This document shows, one piece after another, positions 2,794 through 62,208 of a stretch of 64,000 nucleotides of DNA. The stretch's first letter is position 1. Each line of letters opens with the position of its first letter. The translations under genes were made by a program, and so were the position numbers. A model generated the notes under the pieces. The model was not told the DNA's origin. It did no database searches and saw only the letters and a list, made by a program, of their open reading frames with translations. Where the stretch lies: assembly GCF_020510705.1 (NCBI RefSeq), contig NZ_CP075184.1, positions 3,906,001 through 3,970,000 on the forward strand. The letters are read 5' to 3'. The DNA comes from Acidovorax radicis (GTDB lineage: Bacteria; Pseudomonadota; Gammaproteobacteria; Burkholderiales; Burkholderiaceae_C).

Positions 2794-2825
2794 TGCCGGG
2801 GATGTGACACCTGACGAATCACATC

Positions 2826-2875
2826 AAAATTCATAGCTGCTAGCGCCTATCCCATAAGCGCTAGCAGCCAAAAAG
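2826..2875. repeat. Family A palindromic repeat, copy A1
   Basis: Inverted repeat with arms GCTGCTAGCGC and GCGCTAGCAGC around a short loop, flanked by an A/T run on each side. It lies between the convergent 3' ends of the DUF3334 gene and mgtA and could serve as a bidirectional terminator. It belongs to the family recurring at 13346, 14349, 18144, 26280, 49139, 55403 and 62064. Confidence 0.85.
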
Positions 2876-2932
2876 GCTCAAATGGGCGGCCCCCAGCACG
2901 GGGCCCCATCGTGGCGTCGCAGGTCGCAGTAT

Positions 2933-7987: not shown

Positions 7988-9058
7988 CTACCCTTCAAAT
8001 TGCGGATGCAATTGCCGGATGCGGTTCATGGCCATGGCCGCCGCTGCCGTGCGTGTTTCCACGCCCAGCTTGGCAAACACGCGCTCCAGGTGCTTTTTGA
8101 CGGTGGCGGGGCTGGCGCCCAGGATGTCGCCGATGTCGCGGTTGATCTTGCCCTTGACCACCCAGTACAGCACCTCGGCCTCGCGCGCGGTGAGCCTGAA
8201 CGACAGGCTCATGGACTCGATGATCTTCGCGTCCGACACCTCGCGCATCACGATGAGCCAGTCGCCGCCGCCCGCGCTGTCGCCCGCCTGCTGGTGCAGG
8301 CGGAAGGTAAGCCGGCGCGCGCCCTGCTCCACCGCCAGGCGCGGTGGCTCGGCCAGCGATGCGGCCAGCAGCTCTGCCGCGTTGTCGGCCAGCACATGGC
8401 GGCGCAGCCAGGCCTGCACGGGCTCGGGCGCCCATTGGCCAAGGGCGGCGGGCGTGCCGTCCGGGCCCACCTCGCCGAAGTAGCTTTGCAGCAGCTCGCG
8501 CGCCAGCGGGGTCTGCCACACGATGCGGCCGTCCACCGCGCGCACGGTGATGCTGGCGTAGCCGAAGGCATCAAGCGCGTTGCGCGCCTCGCGGGCCTGG
8601 CGCGCGTCCTGCCGGGCCTTGCGCGCCGCGCCCAGGTGCACGCCCATGCGGGCCATCACCTCGCGCGGCTTGATGGGCTTGGTGACGTAGTCCACGCCAC
8701 CCGCCTCCAGCGCGGCCACGAGGTGCTCGGTCTCGGTCAGGCCGGTCATGAAGATGATGGGAATGTGCGCCGTCAGGGGCGATGCCTTCAGGCGCCGCGC
8801 GACCTCGAAGCCGTCCATGCCGGGCATCATGGCGTCGAGCAGCACGATATCGGGCAGGGCCTGGGCGGCACGCTGCAGCGCGGCCTCGCCGTGCATGGCC
8901 ACGAGCACGGTGTAGCCCGATTCATCGAGCGCGTCGTGCAGCACGGCCAGGTTGTCGGGCACGTCGTCCACGATCAGCACCACGTCGCTGTCGCTGCGGT
9001 CCAGCGCGGCACCGGGCGCTGCTGGCGCCGGAAAGGAAGGGGGAATTGCGGTGGTCAT
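7988..9058 (-). CDS. Response regulator, receiver plus LuxR-type HTH
   Basis: A 356-aa DNA-binding response regulator. The N-terminal receiver (about residues 25-145) has VVLIVDDVPDN, the phosphoacceptor in LLDAMMPGMDG, the conserved Thr in FMTGL and Lys in VTKPI. A middle segment (about 165-280) looks PAS-like. The C-terminus is a NarL/FixJ HTH (LTAREAEVLYWVVKGKINRDI, then SPATVKKHLERVFAKLGV). The start at 9058 overlaps the stop of the histidine-kinase gene as TGATG, so the two proteins are translated together and are almost certainly partners. The divergent neighbour is the urease operon, a plausible target. Confidence 0.9.
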   Translation of the reverse strand: MTTAIPPSFPAPAAPGAALDRSDSDVVLIVDDVPDNLAVLHDALDESGYTVLVAMHGEAALQRAAQALPDIVLLDAMMPGMDGFEVARRLKASPLTAHIPIIFMTGLTETEHLVAALEAGGVDYVTKPIKPREVMARMGVHLGAARKARQDARQAREARNALDAFGYASITVRAVDGRIVWQTPLARELLQSYFGEVGPDGTPAALGQWAPEPVQAWLRRHVLADNAAELLAASLAEPPRLAVEQGARRLTFRLHQQAGDSAGGGDWLIVMREVSDAKIIESMSLSFRLTAREAEVLYWVVKGKINRDIGDILGASPATVKKHLERVFAKLGVETRTAAAAMAMNRIRQLHPQFEG

Positions 9059-12000
9059 CACGGTGGCGCCTGCTCCAGGATCTGGCCCATGGCATCGAAC
9101 TGGAACTGCTTGGCCAGTTGCCGCATGGTGTGCACAAAGGCGCTGTGCGCGGGCTGGCTGCGTTCGATGTCGTCCAGGGTGTTGAGGATGCCACGGTAGT
9201 AGCCCAGTGCCACGGCCTGCGCCAAGGCGGCCAGGGCGGTGGTGTCGGGGTACGTGAGGGGCGCATCCGCTGCCGCAGGCAAGGCGGGAGTCACATCGGC
9301 TTCGCCGTATTGCCACTGCAGGCCCAAACGGCGCTCCAGCCAGTCGAGCAGCTCGCTGTGGCGCACGGGCTTGACAATGAAGTCCTCGGGGCGGATGCCC
9401 ACGTCGTTGTCGAGCGCCTTGTCAAACGCATTGGCGGAGACGATGGCGCAATGGATTGACCCCCACGCTCCGCACTCCGTGTCGTCGCTGCCCCCCGAGG
9501 GGGCCCCGTCCGGCTTGGGGCGGCCCGGCGCCGGACGGATGCCAGCAAGGTGCATCTGCCGCACGCGCCGCAGCGTCTCCCATCCATCAATGCCCGGCAT
9601 GGCCAGGTCCATGAAGATGGCGTGCGGCCGGTAGCCCGTGGCCAGCAGGTCCAGCGCATCGTGGCCGCTGGCGGCCTGGCGCAGCTCAAAGCCCAGGGGT
9701 TCCAGCAGTTGCAGCAGCAGTTCGCGGTCGGGCTCCTCGTTGTCCACCACCAGGATGCGGCGGCGCTCGCCTTCATACCCCCTGCGGGCGCGCTGGGCTT
9801 GCACCGCCACGGGCGCCGCCGCCTTGCCCAGCACATCCCCATGCACCTCGGGCAGGAACAGCTTGACGTGGAACACCGAGCCTACGCCCGGGGTGCTGCT
9901 CACCGTCAGCTCGCCACCCATGAGCGCGGTGAGCATCTTGGCAATGGTCAGGCCCAGGCCCGCACCCGGAGCGGCTGCGGTGCTGCCACCGCCCGAGCCA
10001 CCGCGCGCAAAGGGCTCGAAGATGCGCTCGATCTCGTCGGACGTGAGGCCTGGCCCCGTGTCTTGCACCTCGATGCGCGCCATCTCGCGGGCATAGCGCA
10101 CGCGCAGCGTGACGGTGCCGTGCGCGGTGAACTTGACGGCGTTGCCCAGCAGGTTGATGAGGATCTGGCGCAGGCGCTTTTCGTCAGCGCGCACCACTTC
10201 CGGGATCACGCCCAGCACGTCGAACTGGAACGCCAGGCCCTTGGCGGCGGCCTGCAGCTCGAACAGGCTGGCCATCTCGTGCAGGCCGTCGGCAAAGCGC
10301 ATGGGCGTGACATCGAGCGTGAGCTTGCCGGATTCGATGCGCGCAATATCGAGCGTGCCTTCGATGAGCGACAGCAAGTGCTCGCCACCACGCCGGATCA
10401 CGTGCACCGCCTGCTTGCGGTGGGGCGGCACGCCTGCATCCTCGCCCATCAGCTGCGCGTAGCCCAGGATGGAATTGAGCGGCGTGCGGATCTCGTGGCT
10501 GATGGCGCTGATGTAGCGGCTCTTGGCCTGGTTGGCCTGCTCGGCGGCGCGCTTGGCTTCTTCGGCCACCTGGCGCGCCTGCTCGGCCACGCTGCGCGCA
10601 GTCTGCAGGGCCTCGTCGGTCTGGCGGTGCAATTCGATCTCGCGCACCAAAAGGCCGGTCTGGCGATTGGATTCCTCTTGCGCCACCTGGCGGCTTTTGT
10701 GCGCCAGTACCAGCCACCACGCCACGATGCCCGAGATGACCAGCAGCGCGAGATAGACCTTGAGCAGGCCGGAGCGCAGAGCCACTTCGGGTGCAGCCAT
10801 CACCTCGGTGTCGGTGGCGGCCTGTGCGATGGTGTTGAGTTCCTGGTGGTACAGCAGGCCCATGACGGACGCCAGCAGTGGCGCAATCACCAGCATCAAC
10901 AGCAGGAAATGGCCAAGGCCCGTGTCCAGGTAGCGCCAGATGGCGCGTGGCAACACCCAGCGCAGCGCGGCAGACCACTGCACCGCCATGCTCGCGTGGG
11001 GCTTGCACAGGTCGCCACAGCGCGCATCGAGCGTGCAGCACAGCGAGCAGATGGCACCCCGGTAGGCGGGGCATTGGGCCATGTCGGGCGCTTCGTATTC
11101 GCGCTCGCAGATCACGCAGCGCTGCACGGTGGTGCGCATGGTGCTGCCCATGTCCTGCCCCAATTTGCCCGGGCCGTGCATGGGCACTGCCACCACATCG
11201 GTCAATGTGGCGGGCTCAGGCTGGCGCGCAATGTAGTAGCGCCCCCCGGTGGCCCAGGCAATGAGCGGCGCCGACACAAACGCCACCGCCATCGCAATCA
11301 CCGCCGAGAACGCCTGCGGCAGCGGTCCGAACAGGCCCAGGTGCGCGCTGATGGACAGGATGGACGCGAGCGCCATGGAGCCCACGCCCACCGGATTGAT
11401 GTCGTACAAATGCGCGCGCTTGAACTCGATGCCCTTGGGCGACAGACCCAGCGGCTTGTTGATGACGAGATCGGCCACCACCGACATGATCCAGGCGATG
11501 GCGATGTTGGAGTACAGCCCCAGCACCTCGCCCATGGCGCGGAACACGTTCATCTCCATCAGCATGAAGGCAATCAGCGTGTTGAACACCACCCACACCA
11601 CGCGCCCCGGGTGGCTGTGCGTAAGGCGCGAGAAAAAGTTGGACCAGGCCAGCGAGCCCGCGTAGGCGTTGGTCACATTGATCTTGAGCTGCGAGATCAC
11701 CACAAACAATGCCGTGGCCGCCACCGCCCAGCCATAGTTGGGGAACACATATTCATACGCGGCCAGGTACATCTGGTTCGGGTCCACCGCCCGGTCGGCG
11801 GGCACCATGTGGGTGAGCGCCAGGTAGGCGAGCAGCGCGCCGCCCAGCATCTTGAGCACGCCCAGCACCACCCAGCCCGGCCCACCCACCAGCACACCCA
11901 GCCACCAGCGCCCACGCGTGGCGGGTGTGCTGGCGGGCATGAAGCGCAGGTAGTCGGCCTGCTCCCCCATCTGGGTAATGAGTGCAATACCCACCGTGAG

Positions 12001-12747
12001 CGCCGCACCAAACAAGGGCAATTGAAACGAGGCGCCCCGCATGAATTCACCACCGTAGTGCGCAACCCCAGAAAACGCACCAGGATCGCGCACCAACACA
12101 TAGGCAAACGGCACCACCAGCATCACCAGCCACAGCGGCTGCGTCCACACCTGCAGCCGGCTGATGGCCGACACGCCATGCGTGACCAGCGGAATCACCA
12201 CCATGGCGCAGATGAGGTAGCCCCAGGTGGGCGGAATGTCGAGCGCCAGCTCCAGCGCATAGGCCATCACGGCGGCTTCGAGCGCGAAGAAGATGAAGGT
12301 GAAGCTGGCGTAGATGAGCGAGGTGAGCGTGGAGCCGATGTAGCCAAAGCCCGCGCCGCGCGTGAGCAGGTCCATGTCCACGCCATAGCGGGCCGCGTAC
12401 ACGCTGATCGGCAGCCCCGCCAGGAAGATGATGAGCCCCGTGGCCACGATGGCCCAGAACGCGTTGATGAAGCCGTACTGCACCAGCAGCGTTGCGCCCA
12501 CGGCTTCGAGAATCAGGAACGACGCCGCGCCAAACGCCGTGTTGGCCACCCGCCATTCAGACCACTTGCGAAAGCGCTGGGGGGTGTAGCGCAGCGCGTA
12601 GTCCTCCATGGTCTCGGTGGCCACCCAGCTGTTGTAGTCGCGGCGGACCTTGACGACCTGCTGGGGCGCCTGCGCGTCGGCATCCGGCCCCAATGCGGGC
12701 GCCGAGGCCACGTCGGGCGGGGCAAGAGAGGCGGTGGAAGGGGGCAT
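9058..12747 (-). CDS. NCS1 permease-hybrid histidine kinase fusion
   Basis: A 1229-aa transporter-sensor. Residues about 25-500 are a full NCS1 permease (cytosine/hydantoin/allantoin type) with some 12 membrane helices. A cysteine cluster follows (about 541-582, CVICE...C...CSLCC...C...C), perhaps metal-binding, then two more helices, a coiled coil, HisKA with AISHEIRTPLN (His near 748), HATPase with NLLGNAVKF, DTGPGL and GAGLGLTI, and a receiver with ILVVDNEEPDR, FMDLAMPG and VKPVRH. A 33-residue insertion at about 1066-1098 in the receiver is a family B repeat. The start is uncertain: ATG at 12747 lacks a strong ribosome-binding site and a GTG at 12843 is in frame. Likely senses a nitrogenous ring compound or its uptake. 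Confidence 0.88.
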   Translation of the reverse strand: MPPSTASLAPPDVASAPALGPDADAQAPQQVVKVRRDYNSWVATETMEDYALRYTPQRFRKWSEWRVANTAFGAASFLILEAVGATLLVQYGFINAFWAIVATGLIIFLAGLPISVYAARYGVDMDLLTRGAGFGYIGSTLTSLIYASFTFIFFALEAAVMAYALELALDIPPTWGYLICAMVVIPLVTHGVSAISRLQVWTQPLWLVMLVVPFAYVLVRDPGAFSGVAHYGGEFMRGASFQLPLFGAALTVGIALITQMGEQADYLRFMPASTPATRGRWWLGVLVGGPGWVVLGVLKMLGGALLAYLALTHMVPADRAVDPNQMYLAAYEYVFPNYGWAVAATALFVVISQLKINVTNAYAGSLAWSNFFSRLTHSHPGRVVWVVFNTLIAFMLMEMNVFRAMGEVLGLYSNIAIAWIMSVVADLVINKPLGLSPKGIEFKRAHLYDINPVGVGSMALASILSISAHLGLFGPLPQAFSAVIAMAVAFVSAPLIAWATGGRYYIARQPEPATLTDVVAVPMHGPGKLGQDMGSTMRTTVQRCVICEREYEAPDMAQCPAYRGAICSLCCTLDARCGDLCKPHASMAVQWSAALRWVLPRAIWRYLDTGLGHFLLLMLVIAPLLASVMGLLYHQELNTIAQAATDTEVMAAPEVALRSGLLKVYLALLVISGIVAWWLVLAHKSRQVAQEESNRQTGLLVREIELHRQTDEALQTARSVAEQARQVAEEAKRAAEQANQAKSRYISAISHEIRTPLNSILGYAQLMGEDAGVPPHRKQAVHVIRRGGEHLLSLIEGTLDIARIESGKLTLDVTPMRFADGLHEMASLFELQAAAKGLAFQFDVLGVIPEVVRADEKRLRQILINLLGNAVKFTAHGTVTLRVRYAREMARIEVQDTGPGLTSDEIERIFEPFARGGSGGGSTAAAPGAGLGLTIAKMLTALMGGELTVSSTPGVGSVFHVKLFLPEVHGDVLGKAAAPVAVQAQRARRGYEGERRRILVVDNEEPDRELLLQLLEPLGFELRQAASGHDALDLLATGYRPHAIFMDLAMPGIDGWETLRRVRQMHLAGIRPAPGRPKPDGAPSGGSDDTECGAWGSIHCAIVSANAFDKALDNDVGIRPEDFIVKPVRHSELLDWLERRLGLQWQYGEADVTPALPAAADAPLTYPDTTALAALAQAVALGYYRGILNTLDDIERSQPAHSAFVHTMRQLAKQFQFDAMGQILEQAPP
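9447..9546 (-). repeat. Family B GC-rich repeat, in frame within a receiver domain
   Basis: The block reads on the plus strand as TGACCCCCACGCTCCGC, then a CCCCCCGAGGGGG stem, then CTTGGGGCGGCCCGGCG. It resembles the intergenic blocks at 50628, 51643 and 57616. It is read through in the kinase gene as a Gly/Pro-rich 33-residue insertion between VRQM and CAIVSANAFD, where receiver domains are normally contiguous. Confidence 0.75.
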
Positions 12748-12971
12748 GGACAGGGGTTGCGACAAGCCCTGCAAGTGCAGTTTCCATGCCACGGCCGCCC
12801 CGGGTGGGCACCACCCCTGCGCCCTCTGGCGTATGGCGGGCACGGGGCTTGCTGCCTATGATGAATCCGCTGCCCTTCGGACCACACGGCCATCGATGAC
12901 GATTGCCCCGTGTGTCCGGCCTGGACAACCCGCCACACGAGCCCACCCCTCCTTACATTGAGCAGAACGAC
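12748..12971. promoter_or_regulatory. Divergent control region, sensor kinase / urease
   Basis: This 224-base region separates the NCS1-histidine kinase start from ureA on the opposite strand, so it should hold promoters for both and binding sites for the paired response regulator. No unambiguous operator or promoter hexamers can be named by eye. Confidence 0.45.
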
Positions 12972-13274
12972 ATGGAACTGACCCCTCGTGAGAAAGACAA
13001 GCTGCTGATCTTCACCGCCGCCCTGCTGGCCGAGCGCCGCAAGGCCCGAGGCCTCAAGCTCAACTACCCCGAGGCCATGGCCCTGATCAGCGCGGCCGTG
13101 ATGGAGGGCGCACGCGACGGCAAGACCGTGGCGCAGCTCATGAGCGAAGGCCGCACGGTGCTGACCCGTGCGGACGTGATGGACGGCATCGCCGAGATGA
13201 TCCCGGACATCCAGGTGGAGGCCACCTTCCCCGACGGCACCAAGCTCGTCACCGTCCATCAGCCGATCGTCTGA
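12972..13274 (+). CDS. ureA: Urease subunit gamma
   Basis: The 100-aa gamma chain of nickel urease, which hydrolyses urea to ammonia and carbamate in the cytoplasm. Length and sequence are standard, with [17 protein letters not shown] at the start, [11 protein letters not shown], and the C-terminal [14 protein letters not shown]. The ATG at 12972 is chosen over an upstream in-frame ATG because this is the conserved N-terminus. First gene of the operon; in many relatives ureD lies just before it, but here the upstream neighbour is the divergent sensor kinase. Confidence 0.97.
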
Positions 13275-13317: not shown

Positions 13318-13926
13318 ATGCTTTCCACCCGCACCAAATCCGCTCTTTTTTTGATAGCTTCTAGCGCTTTATCCATGAGCGCTAGCGCCCATACAGGCGT
13401 AGAAACGCACAGCCACAGCGGTTTCACCAGCGGCTTTGTGCACCCGCTGTTTGGTCTGGACCACCTGGCCGCCATGGTGGCCGTGGGCCTGTGGAGCGCA
13501 CTGGCTGCGCGCAAGGCCGGTAGCGAACTGCTATGGGGCCCCGTGGGCTTTGCAGCCATGCTGCTGGCGGGCGCAGTGCTGGGCTTGCAGGGCGTGGCCG
13601 TGCCTGCGGTGGAGCCGATGATTGCTGCGTCGCTGCTCGTCACCGGGCTGCTCGTGGTGTCGCGCCTGCGCGTGCCCGGCCTGGTGGCCGCGCTGGGCGT
13701 GGGCGTGTTTGCCGTGTTCCACGGCGTGGCCCACGGCTATGAGCTAGCAGGCAGCAACAGCGCCTGGCAAACCCTGGCGGGCATGCTGGCTGCCACCGTG
13801 CTGCTGCATGGTGCGGGTCTGGCAACGGGCTGGGCGCTGCGCAACCGCACGGTATGGGTAGCGCGCGCGGCAGGTGTTGGCGTGGCCGCGTTCGGAGGTG
13901 CATTGCTGTTGCAGCAGGTGGCGTGA
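13318..13926 (+). CDS. ureJ: HupE/UreJ family metal permease
   Basis: A 202-aa inner-membrane protein with about six helices, of the family thought to supply nickel (or cobalt) to urease and hydrogenase. The family signature HPLFGLDHLAAMVAVGLW follows a His-containing N-terminus. Residues 1-24 form a signal peptide with cleavage predicted after ASA, leaving a mature N-terminal His. Remarkably, the hydrophobic and cleavage regions (FLIASSALSMSASA) are encoded by a family A palindromic repeat. It sits between ureA and ureB, the common position in beta-proteobacterial urease operons. A ribosome-binding site TTTGGAG precedes the ATG. Confidence 0.93.
   Translation: MLSTRTKSALFLIASSALSMSASAHTGVETHSHSGFTSGFVHPLFGLDHLAAMVAVGLWSALAARKAGSELLWGPVGFAAMLLAGAVLGLQGVAVPAVEPMIAASLLVTGLLVVSRLRVPGLVAALGVGVFAVFHGVAHGYELAGSNSAWQTLAGMLAATVLLHGAGLATGWALRNRTVWVARAAGVGVAAFGGALLLQQVA
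13346..13390 (+). repeat. Family A repeat, copy A2, encodes the UreJ signal peptide
   Basis: TTTTTGATAGCTTCTAGCG, then CTTTATCCATGAGCG and CTAGCGCCC, aligns closely with the other family A copies. Here it is translated in frame as residues about 11-24 of UreJ and supplies the signal-peptide core and the signal peptidase site. The inner palindrome (CTAGCGCTTTATCC ATGAGCGCTAG) is preserved. Confidence 0.85.
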
Positions 13927-14015: not shown

Positions 14016-14321
14016 ATGATCCCAGGCGAACTCATTACCGAACCCGGCGAGCACCCGCTCAACACCGGCCGCCGCACCGTCACGCTGGTGGTGCGCAACA
14101 CCGCCGACCGGCCTATCCAGGTCGGCTCGCACTACCACTTTGCCGAAACCAACAACGCCCTGGGCTTTGACCGCGCGGCTGCGCGCGGCATGCGGCTGAA
14201 CATTGCGTCGGGCACCGCCGTGCGCTTTGAGCCCGGCCAGGAGCGCACCGTGGAGCTGGTGGACTACGCGGGCGAGCGCAAGGTGTACGGCTTTCAGGGC
14301 CTGACGCAGGGTGCGCTGTAG
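14016..14321 (+). CDS. ureB: Urease subunit beta
   Basis: The 101-aa beta chain of urease, opening [19 protein letters not shown] as is typical, with the conserved [15 protein letters not shown] and [17 protein letters not shown] blocks. It packs with UreA and UreC in the cytoplasmic holoenzyme. It lies 89 bases after ureJ, and ureC follows after a 113-base gap that carries a family A repeat. Confidence 0.97.
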
Positions 14322-14348
14322 CACTGAACCACCAAAATTTAAGCCAAA

Positions 14349-14390
14349 TTGGCCTCTAGCGCTTGATGGATAAGCGCTAGCAGCTATTAA
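14349..14390. repeat. Family A palindromic repeat, copy A3
   Basis: CTCTAGCGCTT and AAGCGCTAGCAGC arms around GATGGAT, with flanking A/T. It sits in the ureB-ureC gap, inside an operon, so if it folds in mRNA it must be read through and may act as a processing or stability element instead of a full terminator. Confidence 0.85.
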
Positions 14391-14434
14391 AACAATAGTA
14401 TTTATCGCCCACCGGAAAAGCGGAGCACCCCACC

Positions 14435-16180
<1,746 letters not shown>

Positions 16181-17445: not shown

Positions 17446-18156
17446 ATGCGTCTCGACCGCGCCACGCCCCTGCCCGCCGCCAGCCTGCTGCAACTCATCT
17501 GGCTTGCCTCACCCGCACTGCCGGTGGGCGGCTTCTCGTATTCCGAAGGCCTGGAAAGCGCCATTGAAAACGCAGGCGTCGCCAGCGAGGCCGCCGTGGG
17601 CGACTGGCTGCTGGACCAGCTTCACATCACCCAGGCCCGTGGCGACATGGCCCTCATCGCCAAGGCTGTAGGCGCCTGGCGCCGCGCCGACTGGGCGCAC
17701 GTGCGCGAGCTCAACGACTGGGTGCAACACACCCGCGAGACCAGCGAACTGCGCTTGCAAACCGAGCAGATGGGCCGGTCGATGGCCGACTGGCTGCGCA
17801 ACCAGTACCAGGGCGACGAGGCCCTGATGCCTGCCGTGCGCAACTTGGCGGCTTTGCCACCCACCTACCCCGTGGCATTTGCGCTGGCCGCCTCCACCAC
17901 CCAGGCGCCCGTGCGCGATGTGCTGCTGGCCTATGCCTTTGGCTGGGCGGAGAACATGGTGCAGGCCGCCCTCAAATCCATGCAGTTGGGCCAAAGCGCG
18001 GGCCAGCGCATCCTGGCGCGGCTGGCCGACGCTATTCCCCCTGCCGCAGACCACGCCATCGGCCTGATGGACAGCGAGCGCCAGGCTTTTTCTCCCATGC
18101 TCGCCATCCTGAGCGCCCAGCACGAAGTGCAATATTCAAGACTTTTCCGCTCCTAG
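17446..18156 (+). CDS. ureF: Urease accessory protein UreF
   Basis: A 236-aa all-helical accessory protein that acts with UreG (and UreD/H) in GTP-dependent nickel insertion into urease. The N-terminal motif [21 protein letters not shown] is diagnostic. The last codons and the stop lie inside a family A repeat (18144-18192), so the C-terminal FRS may be repeat-derived. ureG follows 50 bases downstream. Confidence 0.95.
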
Positions 18157-18192
18157 CGCATGCAACGCCTGCGCCAGCAGCTATTGATTTGA
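18144..18192. repeat. Family A repeat, degenerate copy A4
   Basis: TCCTAGCGCATGCAACGCC then TGCGCCAGCAGCTATTGATTT. The arms are diverged but the flanks (CAGCTATTGATTTGATAG) match the family. The ureF stop codon TAG is within the left arm and the element ends about 15 bases before the ureG start, leaving that gene without an obvious ribosome-binding site. Confidence 0.65.
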
Positions 18193-18206
18193 TAGTAAAC
18201 AACGCC

Positions 18207-25658: not shown

Positions 25659-26275
25659 GGCCGCGTTGGAGGCGTCTGCAGCCAACGGTCACGCAACAGC
25701 GTCAGCATCTGCTGCGCGGCGCGGCCCCGGTGGCTGTGGGCATTCTTGATTTCCACCGGCAACTCGGCAAAGGTTTTGCCAAATTCCGGGATGAACATCA
25801 CAGGATCAAAGCCGAAGCCATTGGTGCCGCGGGGCTCCGCAGTGATCTCGCCCACCACGCGACCGACGGCAATCAGGGGCTCCGGGTCTTCCGGGCTGCG
25901 CACTGCGACCAAGGTGCTGACCATGGCAGCACGCCGGTTGGTCACGCCCTGCAATTGCTCCAGCAGCGCGCGCACGTTGTTGTCGTCGCTTTTTTCGTAG
26001 CCAAACCGGGTGCAGTAATACGCCGTATCGACACCGGGCAGGCCGCCAAAGGCGTCCACACACATGCCTGCGTCATCGGCCAGCGCGGGCAAGCCGGTGT
26101 GCGCCGAGGCAAATCGGGCTTTGGCCAGGGCGTTCTCGACAAAGGTGCGAAAAGGCTCTGGCGCCTCGCCCACGCCCAGGTCGGACTGGCGCACCAGTTC
26201 CACGCCCAGCGGTGCAAACATGGCCTGCAGCTCGGCCAGTTTGCCGCGGTTGTTGGATGCAAGAACAATTTTCAT
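25655..26275 (-). CDS. rdgB: Non-canonical purine NTP pyrophosphatase (ITPase)
   Basis: Hydrolyses dITP, ITP and XTP to monophosphates, keeping deaminated purines out of DNA and RNA. The 206-aa product has the Ham1/RdgB landmarks: KIVLASNNRGKLAEL at the N-terminus, TFVENALAKARFA, ALADDAGMCVDAF and GTNGFGFDPVMFIP near the end. The ATG at 26275 gives MKIVLASNN, the conserved start. Its stop overlaps hemW. Confidence 0.95.
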   Translation of the reverse strand: MKIVLASNNRGKLAELQAMFAPLGVELVRQSDLGVGEAPEPFRTFVENALAKARFASAHTGLPALADDAGMCVDAFGGLPGVDTAYYCTRFGYEKSDDNNVRALLEQLQGVTNRRAAMVSTLVAVRSPEDPEPLIAVGRVVGEITAEPRGTNGFGFDPVMFIPEFGKTFAELPVEIKNAHSHRGRAAQQMLTLLRDRWLQTPPTRP

Positions 26276-26279
26276 GATC

Positions 26280-26325
26280 AAAACAGCCTGTAGCGCTTAT
26301 GCAGAAAGCGCTACCAGCTATCAAT
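26280..26325. repeat. Family A palindromic repeat, copy A5
   Basis: CTGTAGCGCTTATGC and AGAAAGCGCTACCAGCTAT form the usual arms with A/T flanks. It lies between rph and rdgB, which are transcribed in the same direction, so it is an intra-operon element. Confidence 0.8.
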
Positions 26326-26342
26326 AAATGAGTAAATACCCG

Positions 26343-49091: not shown

Positions 49092-49138
49092 GCGCAGCGT
49101 ACTTCCCGGTTTTCATTTGCACGCGACACCAAAGCTAC

Positions 49139-49192
49139 AAAATTGATAGCTGCTAGCGCTTTCAGAATAAGCGCCATAGGCCAAACAGCCTA
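49139..49192. repeat. Family A palindromic repeat, copy A6
   Basis: AATTGATAGCTGCTAGCGC, TTTCAGAATAAGCGC, then CATAGGCCAAACAGCC. The left arm is perfect while the right arm is diverged. It lies between the convergent ends of pth and the ferredoxin gene, as copy A1 does between DUF3334 and mgtA. Confidence 0.75.
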
Positions 49193-49196
49193 AAAA

Positions 49197-49652
<456 letters not shown>

Positions 49653-55357: not shown

Positions 55358-55402
55358 CAGCCACACGCTGCACCCACCGAAGCGGGAGCATTAGCTCCTG
55401 AA

Positions 55403-55447
55403 ACAATAGCTGCCAGCGCTTTATTCATAAGCGCTGACAGCCTTTTT
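55403..55447. repeat. Family A palindromic repeat, copy A7
   Basis: CAATAGCTGCCAGCGCTTTA and TTCATAAGCGCTGACAGCC with a following T-run. Between the binding-protein and amidase genes, both read rightward; it may reduce read-through into the amidase. Confidence 0.8.
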
Positions 55448-55472
55448 TACTTAAAAACTCCCCGCGCCCGCC

Positions 55473-62026: not shown

Positions 62027-62063
62027 GCCTTGCATTATCGAACGCAGACACACTATTGCAAGT

Positions 62064-62112
62064 GTTTTTGGCTGCCAGCGCTTATTGGGCAAGCGCTAGC
62101 AGCTATGATTTT
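62064..62112. repeat. Family A palindromic repeat, copy A8
   Basis: GGCTGCCAGCGCTTATTGG and GCAAGCGCTAGCAGCTATG with A/T flanks. Upstream of the histidine phosphatase start and downstream of the small secreted-protein gene, both leftward. Confidence 0.85.
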
Positions 62113-62208
62113 TATAACACCCCAGCCAACACCTACGGCCATGAGGCGGCGGGCTGCAGTTGGCGCATAGGGCGACCTCGGCAGCGCCCGCCCGACTGCG
62201 CCCGCGCC

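Follow-up and report, generated by a model that had tools for sequence, protein, structure and literature searches.

Leader DNA of ureJ in Acidovorax and some relatives resembles a dispersed palindromic repeat

The ureJ gene and its predicted leader

The stretch of Acidovorax radicis DNA analysed here, called the window, is 64 kb of a genome of 4,995,154 bp in one contig. The ureJ gene lies within it at 13318..13926 on the forward strand, as an open reading frame of 202 aa. Its product, a relative of nickel transporters, belongs to the HupE/UreJ family, matching PF04955 (HupE_UreJ) with E 1.7e-52 and 178 bits against a cut-off of 23; among the matches listed, the closest named relatives are Acidovorax records. 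The gene is flanked by ureA (end at 13274; named by eye) and ureB (start at 14016; PF00699). Two other features of the neighbourhood, both on the reverse strand, are a 1,261-aa frame at 9058-12843, adjoining the urease genes, in which a permease appears by eye to precede histidine-kinase and receiver parts, and a match at 14596-14885 to the Rfam 5' ureB small RNA (RF02514, 106.4 bits), which runs antisense to the beginning of ureC.

The first 24 codons of ureJ (MLSTRTKSALFLIASSALSMSASA; 13318..13389, forward strand) read as a predicted signal peptide, with a putative n-region, h-region and A-x-A cleavage site discerned by eye: a hydrophobic stretch is followed by A-S-A directly ahead of His25 (13390..13392, forward strand). 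An earlier reading of this DNA, made from the sequence alone, had proposed that the frame supplies a hydrophobic core and a signal peptidase site, and the predicted leader agrees with that proposal. Histidine is the first residue of the predicted mature protein in nearly all orthologs examined, and their A-x-A|H pattern points to cleavage ahead of His25; export of UreJ by this leader is likewise a prediction. A parallel, though not a proof, is offered by HupE/UreJ-2 fusion proteins, where, according to the relevant part of a paper on N-terminal histidine metalloproteins (PMC12537917), a metal-binding histidine comes first after the signal peptide; those fusions belong to PF13795, which UreJ here matches only below the cut-off.

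The codons ATA, TTA, TCT and GCT, all present in the leader, are rare in the seven gene stretches of the window that serve as reference (mature ureJ included): ATA encodes 3 of 147 Ile residues, TTA 0 of 302 Leu, TCT 5 of 131 Ser and GCT 18 of 370 Ala.

A dispersed palindromic repeat and its copies

The DNA of the leader matches a repeat found throughout the genome. A covariance model of 69 positions (R1), trained on 14 copies without the one in ureJ, scores 49.5 bits (E 1.5e-8 for the 64-kb window) at 13339..13407 on the forward strand. The sequence-only reading had seen a repeat copy behind residues 11-24 of UreJ; the identification holds, and the match takes in all 69 model positions, beyond those residues. 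At its centre, within ureJ, is the core CTAGCGCTT-TATCCAT-GAGCGCTAG (13361-13385), whose left and right arms (13361..13369 and 13377..13385, forward strand) are recognised from sequence and fold.

Besides ureJ, the window has seven sites that match the full model at 45.5-80.1 bits. Six are training copies: three intergenic ones on the forward strand at 2818..2886 (66.6 bits), 49131..49199 (69.3 bits) and 55391..55459 (71.1 bits), and three on the reverse strand, one in the ureB-ureC spacer at 14334..14402 (80.1 bits) and two at gene edges, at 26268..26336 (66.5 bits) and 62053..62121 (68.1 bits; 18 of its 25 core bases in a predicted gene). The seventh, untrained, is a degenerate copy at 18131..18199 on the reverse strand (45.5 bits) that covers the end of ureF, TAG stop included. 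Seven further, weaker matches are the opposite strand of sites already scored.

A search of the whole genome, as the earlier reading had suggested, turns up copies in number. There are 92 sites with the strict core TAGCGCTT-N7-AAGCGCTA and 0 with the reversed-pattern control; when 150 of 2,428 candidates were scored with the model, ureJ lying outside those 150, all 150 matched. An even sample of 400 kb, drawn at ~250-kb spacing, holds 48 copies and its reversed sequence 0, which extrapolates to roughly 600 copies per genome. Over a 16-pair stem, 80.7% of cells pair in 45 copies other than that of ureJ; covariation within the stem of 45 copies is not above shuffles. Rfam gives no family at gathering score for the ureJ copy or the ureB-ureC copy, and weak matches below it.

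Within the genus, 39 of 47 genomes have strict cores; of 200 genomes sampled across the family, 15 have them, and these represent 13 of 141 genera. The model was applied to 14 genomes, scoring no more than 150 candidates in each, and 11 contain repeats: eight have between 117 and at least 150 copies, G144 has 26, and G044 and G208 (the latter ~70% complete) have three each; on the same limit G008, G202 and G436 give 0 matches.

The ureB-ureC spacer allows one copy to be followed between genomes. Of the 34 Acidovorax loci L009-L042, 32 have a repeat scoring at least 25 there, and L043-L048 all lack one; comparison of these spacers by MITE criteria (terminal inverted repeats, target-site duplication) yields no clean empty site. 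Spacers of some other genera (L059, L063, L163, L169) contain related palindromes with different stems, so that single copies can persist for long. A repeat-like stretch is also seen in L173 (G000:C1:4621184-4621234); its opposite strand resembles what we take to be the N-terminal part of ProA.

Protein constraint

A leader rich in Ala and Ser might resemble the repeat merely because of the protein it encodes, and this was addressed by synonymous recoding. Best-match lists provide 162 ureJ loci with a usable His25 position, 131 of them distinct, including four distant relatives of ~40% identity or less. In each of the 131, the 19 codons before His25 were recoded 20,000 times and scored by a position matrix built from the same 14 copies as the model. 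The protein pattern does lift the scores: recoded leaders average -2.2 for locus L009 and about -44 to -69 for Variovorax. The real score is nevertheless reached by 0 of 20,000 recodings in 15 of the 131 orthologs, this species included (59.4, best recoding 38.8); among the others are L010, L011, L012, L013, L021, L160 (genus code g120), L100 of Paenacidovorax, L109 and L117 of Rhodoferax, L055 of genome G166 and L128 of Polaromonas. Codon usage in this comparison came from open stretches of at least 270 bp on one strand, shadow frames included; the test was therefore redone for this species with the codon usage of six real genes and a fixed background, and 0 of 200,000 recodings reach the real score (56.9, best recoding 38.1). 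The data thus support a relation between leader DNA and repeat beyond what the protein demands.

Orthologs with and without the repeat

Leaders of 41 of the 131 distinct orthologs are repeat-like (z at least 2.5), and all 41 match at offset 0 relative to His25. Another 81 score below -10, with a highest z of 2.3, and nine are ambiguous. Repeat-like leader DNA is found in Acidovorax, Rhodoferax and one Polaromonas group; it is lacking in the Variovorax examined, in a second Polaromonas group and in six Acidovorax loci (L043-L048). The loci without it still have leaders, so the alignment of orthologs proposed in the earlier reading does find relatives with a predicted signal peptide and no repeat DNA. 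The common register across several genera indicates that the repeat-like leader, judged by sequence, is probably old.

Differences in length are small. From the ureA stop to His25, repeat-like loci measure 119 bp in the median (82-256, n=41) and the others 102 bp (71-286, n=75), a median excess of 17 bp only, as compared with 45-66 bp for a simple insertion; there is no consistent jump of that size. The 29 Variovorax loci have a median of 100 bp (83-214), and four repeat-like Polaromonas loci 87-89 bp. Among repeat-free Acidovorax, the distance is 87-88 bp in L043-L046 and 122 bp and 169 bp in the remaining two loci; in their repeat-like congeners it is 109-256 bp. With the start set by rule, repeat-like leaders have a median of 27 codons (22-27) and the others 24 (20-40). 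Leaders with and without the repeat align gap-free beside the cleavage site. The leaders of repeat-free loci, taken with the small median excess, imply that a leader was replaced, or that an insertion was later trimmed. No empty site was found, and the insertion event itself is unseen. The idea that a new signal had arisen in this gene from a mobile palindrome is therefore not supported in its simple form: the register is shared by several genera, and repeat-free orthologs already have leaders.

A tree of mature ureJ with ureA and ureB, in 77 rows taken from the 131 with repeat-free rows thinned, places at least four changes between repeat-like and other leaders when the nine ambiguous rows are set aside; when these form a third group, the repeat-like state needs eight changes. 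One gain and three losses fit the four-change count, and several gains fit as well; such counts do not separate gain from loss. Leaders also appear to have been moved by recombination inside ureJ: L010 (genome G035) has a leader and upstream spacer of the type of this species, and a mature gene that falls in another Acidovorax lineage.

The predicted fold of 13339-13407 has three small hairpins with the 9-bp core stem, of nine pairs, and a z of -2.79 relative to dinucleotide shuffles. The statement of the sequence-only reading that the two arms can pair in mRNA agrees with this fold; its further suggestion, that pairing just after the start codon could affect translation, is unsupported. As stable as the real leader mRNA of this species, or more so, are 188 of 300 synonymous recodings; unusual stability is seen in none of eight orthologs tried; and eight or nine of the nine core pairs can form in only 6 of the 41 repeat-like orthologs, this species and five others.

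Repeat copies inside other genes

The repeat is not confined to intergenic DNA and ureJ. By simple gene calls made for this analysis, with the 25-bp core as criterion, 12 of the 48 copies in the even sample are in predicted genes, 32 are intergenic and four lie at gene edges; five of the 12 score above 45 and seven at 30-37. In 400 kb chosen around copies, together with the 64-kb window, the core falls within a predicted gene in 16 of 85 copies, one of which (L193:16382) probably reflects a misplaced gene start. When the 350 predicted genes of the even sample were recoded synonymously, 20 replicates together gave one match at the same threshold, as against the 12 real ones, so that coding sequence as such does not account for the in-gene copies.

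Strand and reading frame of the repeat vary among the host genes. Those with Pfam matches include genes for an M16 peptidase, the secretin GspD, a TctC-type receptor, CobS, CobD/CbiB, CobU, a biotin carboxylase fusion, an SDR enzyme, a NUDIX protein, IleS, an HI0933-like flavoprotein, a 2-oxoacid dehydrogenase E2, a GTPase that presumably resembles CysN, a protein that we take to be GlmU-like, and an SrkA-like kinase whose closest solved structure is YihE. Clean inserts of 23 residues were considered in the kinase, the carboxylase and IleS, and rejected: solved structures show variable segments there, with small net differences in length. On the opposite strand, the copies in CobS (L184:7650-7718) and CobD/CbiB (L243:3728-3796) read as hydrophobic, membrane-like sequence.

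Beyond UreJ, three more predicted leaders contain the repeat: those of the M16 peptidase, GspD (MTFLFSPRLRFTIKTIAASALLTCASGQIFAQT) and the TctC-type receptor, the last with its copy on the opposite strand and in another frame. The M16 peptidase, matched in 46 of 47 genomes of the genus, has repeat-like leader DNA at offset 0 in 28 of 30 Acidovorax loci examined; the other two come from genomes in which the strict core is absent, and their leaders are within one residue of the usual length. For the receptor, the leader pattern is common at the protein level to most of 19 homologous sequences. A search of this genome with the open-frame peptide gives nine matches, ureJ being the best (E 9.5e-4); neither the M16 nor the GspD leader is among them, so the search is no census.

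Origin of the leader

One way to understand these observations is descent. We consider it probable that the leader DNA of ureJ derives from a copy of the repeat acquired before the split of Acidovorax, Rhodoferax and Polaromonas, in place of an older leader; exaptation, in this broad sense, is likely. On this account a copy of the ~66-bp palindrome would have replaced the leader then present at the 5' end of ureJ, with little net change in length, in an ancestor common to Acidovorax, Rhodoferax and one Polaromonas lineage. By reading of the repeat consensus, one frame is usually open; in ureJ this frame reads as a hydrophobic Leu/Ile/Ala run and then Ser-Ala-Ser-Ala, which would make up an h-region and a signal peptidase site, so that the repeat could serve at once. 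Later drift may have left the palindrome best preserved in six Acidovorax species, this one among them, and partly decayed in others; it would be gone from some lineages, in which repeats are likewise scarce or absent. In favour of descent are the model match obtained without this copy, the synonymous nulls, the register kept in all 41 orthologs, the presence of repeats in 11 of 14 genomes, the in-gene copies beyond the coding-aware control, the repeat-like M16 leaders, and exact matches to the left arms of Rhodoferax and Acidovorax leaders (ATAGCTGCTTGCGCTT, ATAGCTGCCAGCGCTT) among those listed for genomes G038 and G056. Against it stand the lack of an empty site, the modest difference in length, tree counts that several gains fit too, the leader of L010, and leaders of ambiguous likeness in G202 and G208. 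What the sequences show is kinship with the repeat, a common register, the distribution over the loci examined and the missing jump in length; the direction from repeat to gene, the single origin and export are what we infer.

A second perspective supposes that leaders are rewritten by the genomic copies, through several independent overwrites or ongoing gene conversion, likeness to the repeat then tracking its abundance. Across congeners, strict copy number does correlate with leader likeness for ureJ (Spearman 0.68, n=40) and for the M16 peptidase (Spearman 0.75, n=30), and the missing 45-66 bp jump speaks for this view too. But the correlation is not demonstrably independent of kinship: with five independent pairs on well-supported branches, it is significant at neither threshold tried. 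Moreover, codons outside the core are shared between leaders, for instance those of L009, L053 and L128, which favours descent, and the same register in all 41 repeat-like orthologs would need a special reason; several overwrites are rather improbable as the account of ureJ. A wider version would make the repeat a portable signal peptide that repeatedly overwrote leaders, those of UreJ, the M16 peptidase, GspD and the TctC-type receptor, by a conversion-like process nearly in place and with little lengthening, its open frames being read as leaders or membrane segments; we entertain it tentatively, as possible although on the unlikely side.

Convergence would explain the likeness without any kinship between leader and repeat, and the lift that the protein pattern gives to the scores speaks for it, as does the gap-free alignment of both kinds of leader. 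It is strongly disfavoured, and very improbable, under the synonymous nulls, which reject it; the rare codons ATA, TTA and TCT, and the presence of the same repeat in other genes beyond the coding-aware control, tell against it as well. An insertion that is recent and limited to this species would suit the near-complete core stem (8-9 pairs, here and in five other species), but is rejected as exceedingly improbable, because leaders in other genera share the register and the jump in length is absent. That the family instead arose from a ureJ leader is suggested by ambiguous or partly repeat-like leaders in genomes where repeats are scarce or undetected (G202, G208); with two thirds of the even sample intergenic, and other genes carrying the repeat in both orientations and various frames, this direction is scarcely credible. 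The earlier reading had held that exaptation would fail if distant genera shared the sequence by descent and no other copy resembled it better than chance. The outcome is mixed: other genera do share the sequence, yet other copies resemble the leader far above chance.

Relation to known elements

To our knowledge, the origin of new signal peptides at the level of DNA is hardly documented. Here one dispersed repeat is present in the predicted leaders of several conserved proteins, it can be dated by comparison across genera, and it leaves a footprint at synonymous sites that is open to statistical testing. Whether repeats supply parts of proteins thereby becomes directly testable in free-living bacteria. 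A caution follows for comparative work: apparent conservation of leader DNA across genera may stem from a shared repeat.

Several families of small repeats invite comparison. REP and BIME elements are likewise short palindromes, mostly intergenic; REP elements have a REP-associated transposase. In the open-access literature, so far as its accessible parts go, no report was found in which leaders of several conserved proteins contain one repeat across several genera. Rickettsia palindromic elements are described in the relevant part of PMC2229807 as dispersed both between genes and in-frame inside conserved genes, a likeness to the present case; by that description they are set apart by their length of 105-146 bp and their host Rickettsia, as compared with a 69-position model in Comamonadaceae. 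The same source has a small repeat, Yersinia YPAL / RU-2, as part of a predicted signal peptide at locus YPO1552 (PMC2229807); that element is of 168 bp and the protein is a putative new exported one of Yersinia, whereas UreJ is a conserved protein whose relatives keep repeat-free leaders.

Closer at hand is the Beta-proteobacterial repeat element, BRE, of ~90 bp, with 29 copies in Polaromonas JS666 according to the pertinent part of PMC3110155; it too is dispersed in Comamonadaceae and others, with some copies in genes (PMC3110155). Judged by description rather than sequence comparison, BRE is probably another family: G436 and the JS666 record have identical ureJ leader DNA (L162, L115), and none of 150 candidates scored in G436 matches R1. 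Two motifs, given in 2017 as potential novel motifs in a paper whose section 13 treats neither leaders nor evolution (PMC5217627), stand nearer: GCTTAT(N)5AAGCG in Acidovorax ebreus TPSY, with 114 copies, five of them in genes, and ATAGCT(N)22CAAAAG in Polaromonas naphthalenivorans CJ2, with 125 copies, 18 of them in genes. By their letters, both very probably belong to the repeat family found in the ureJ leader.
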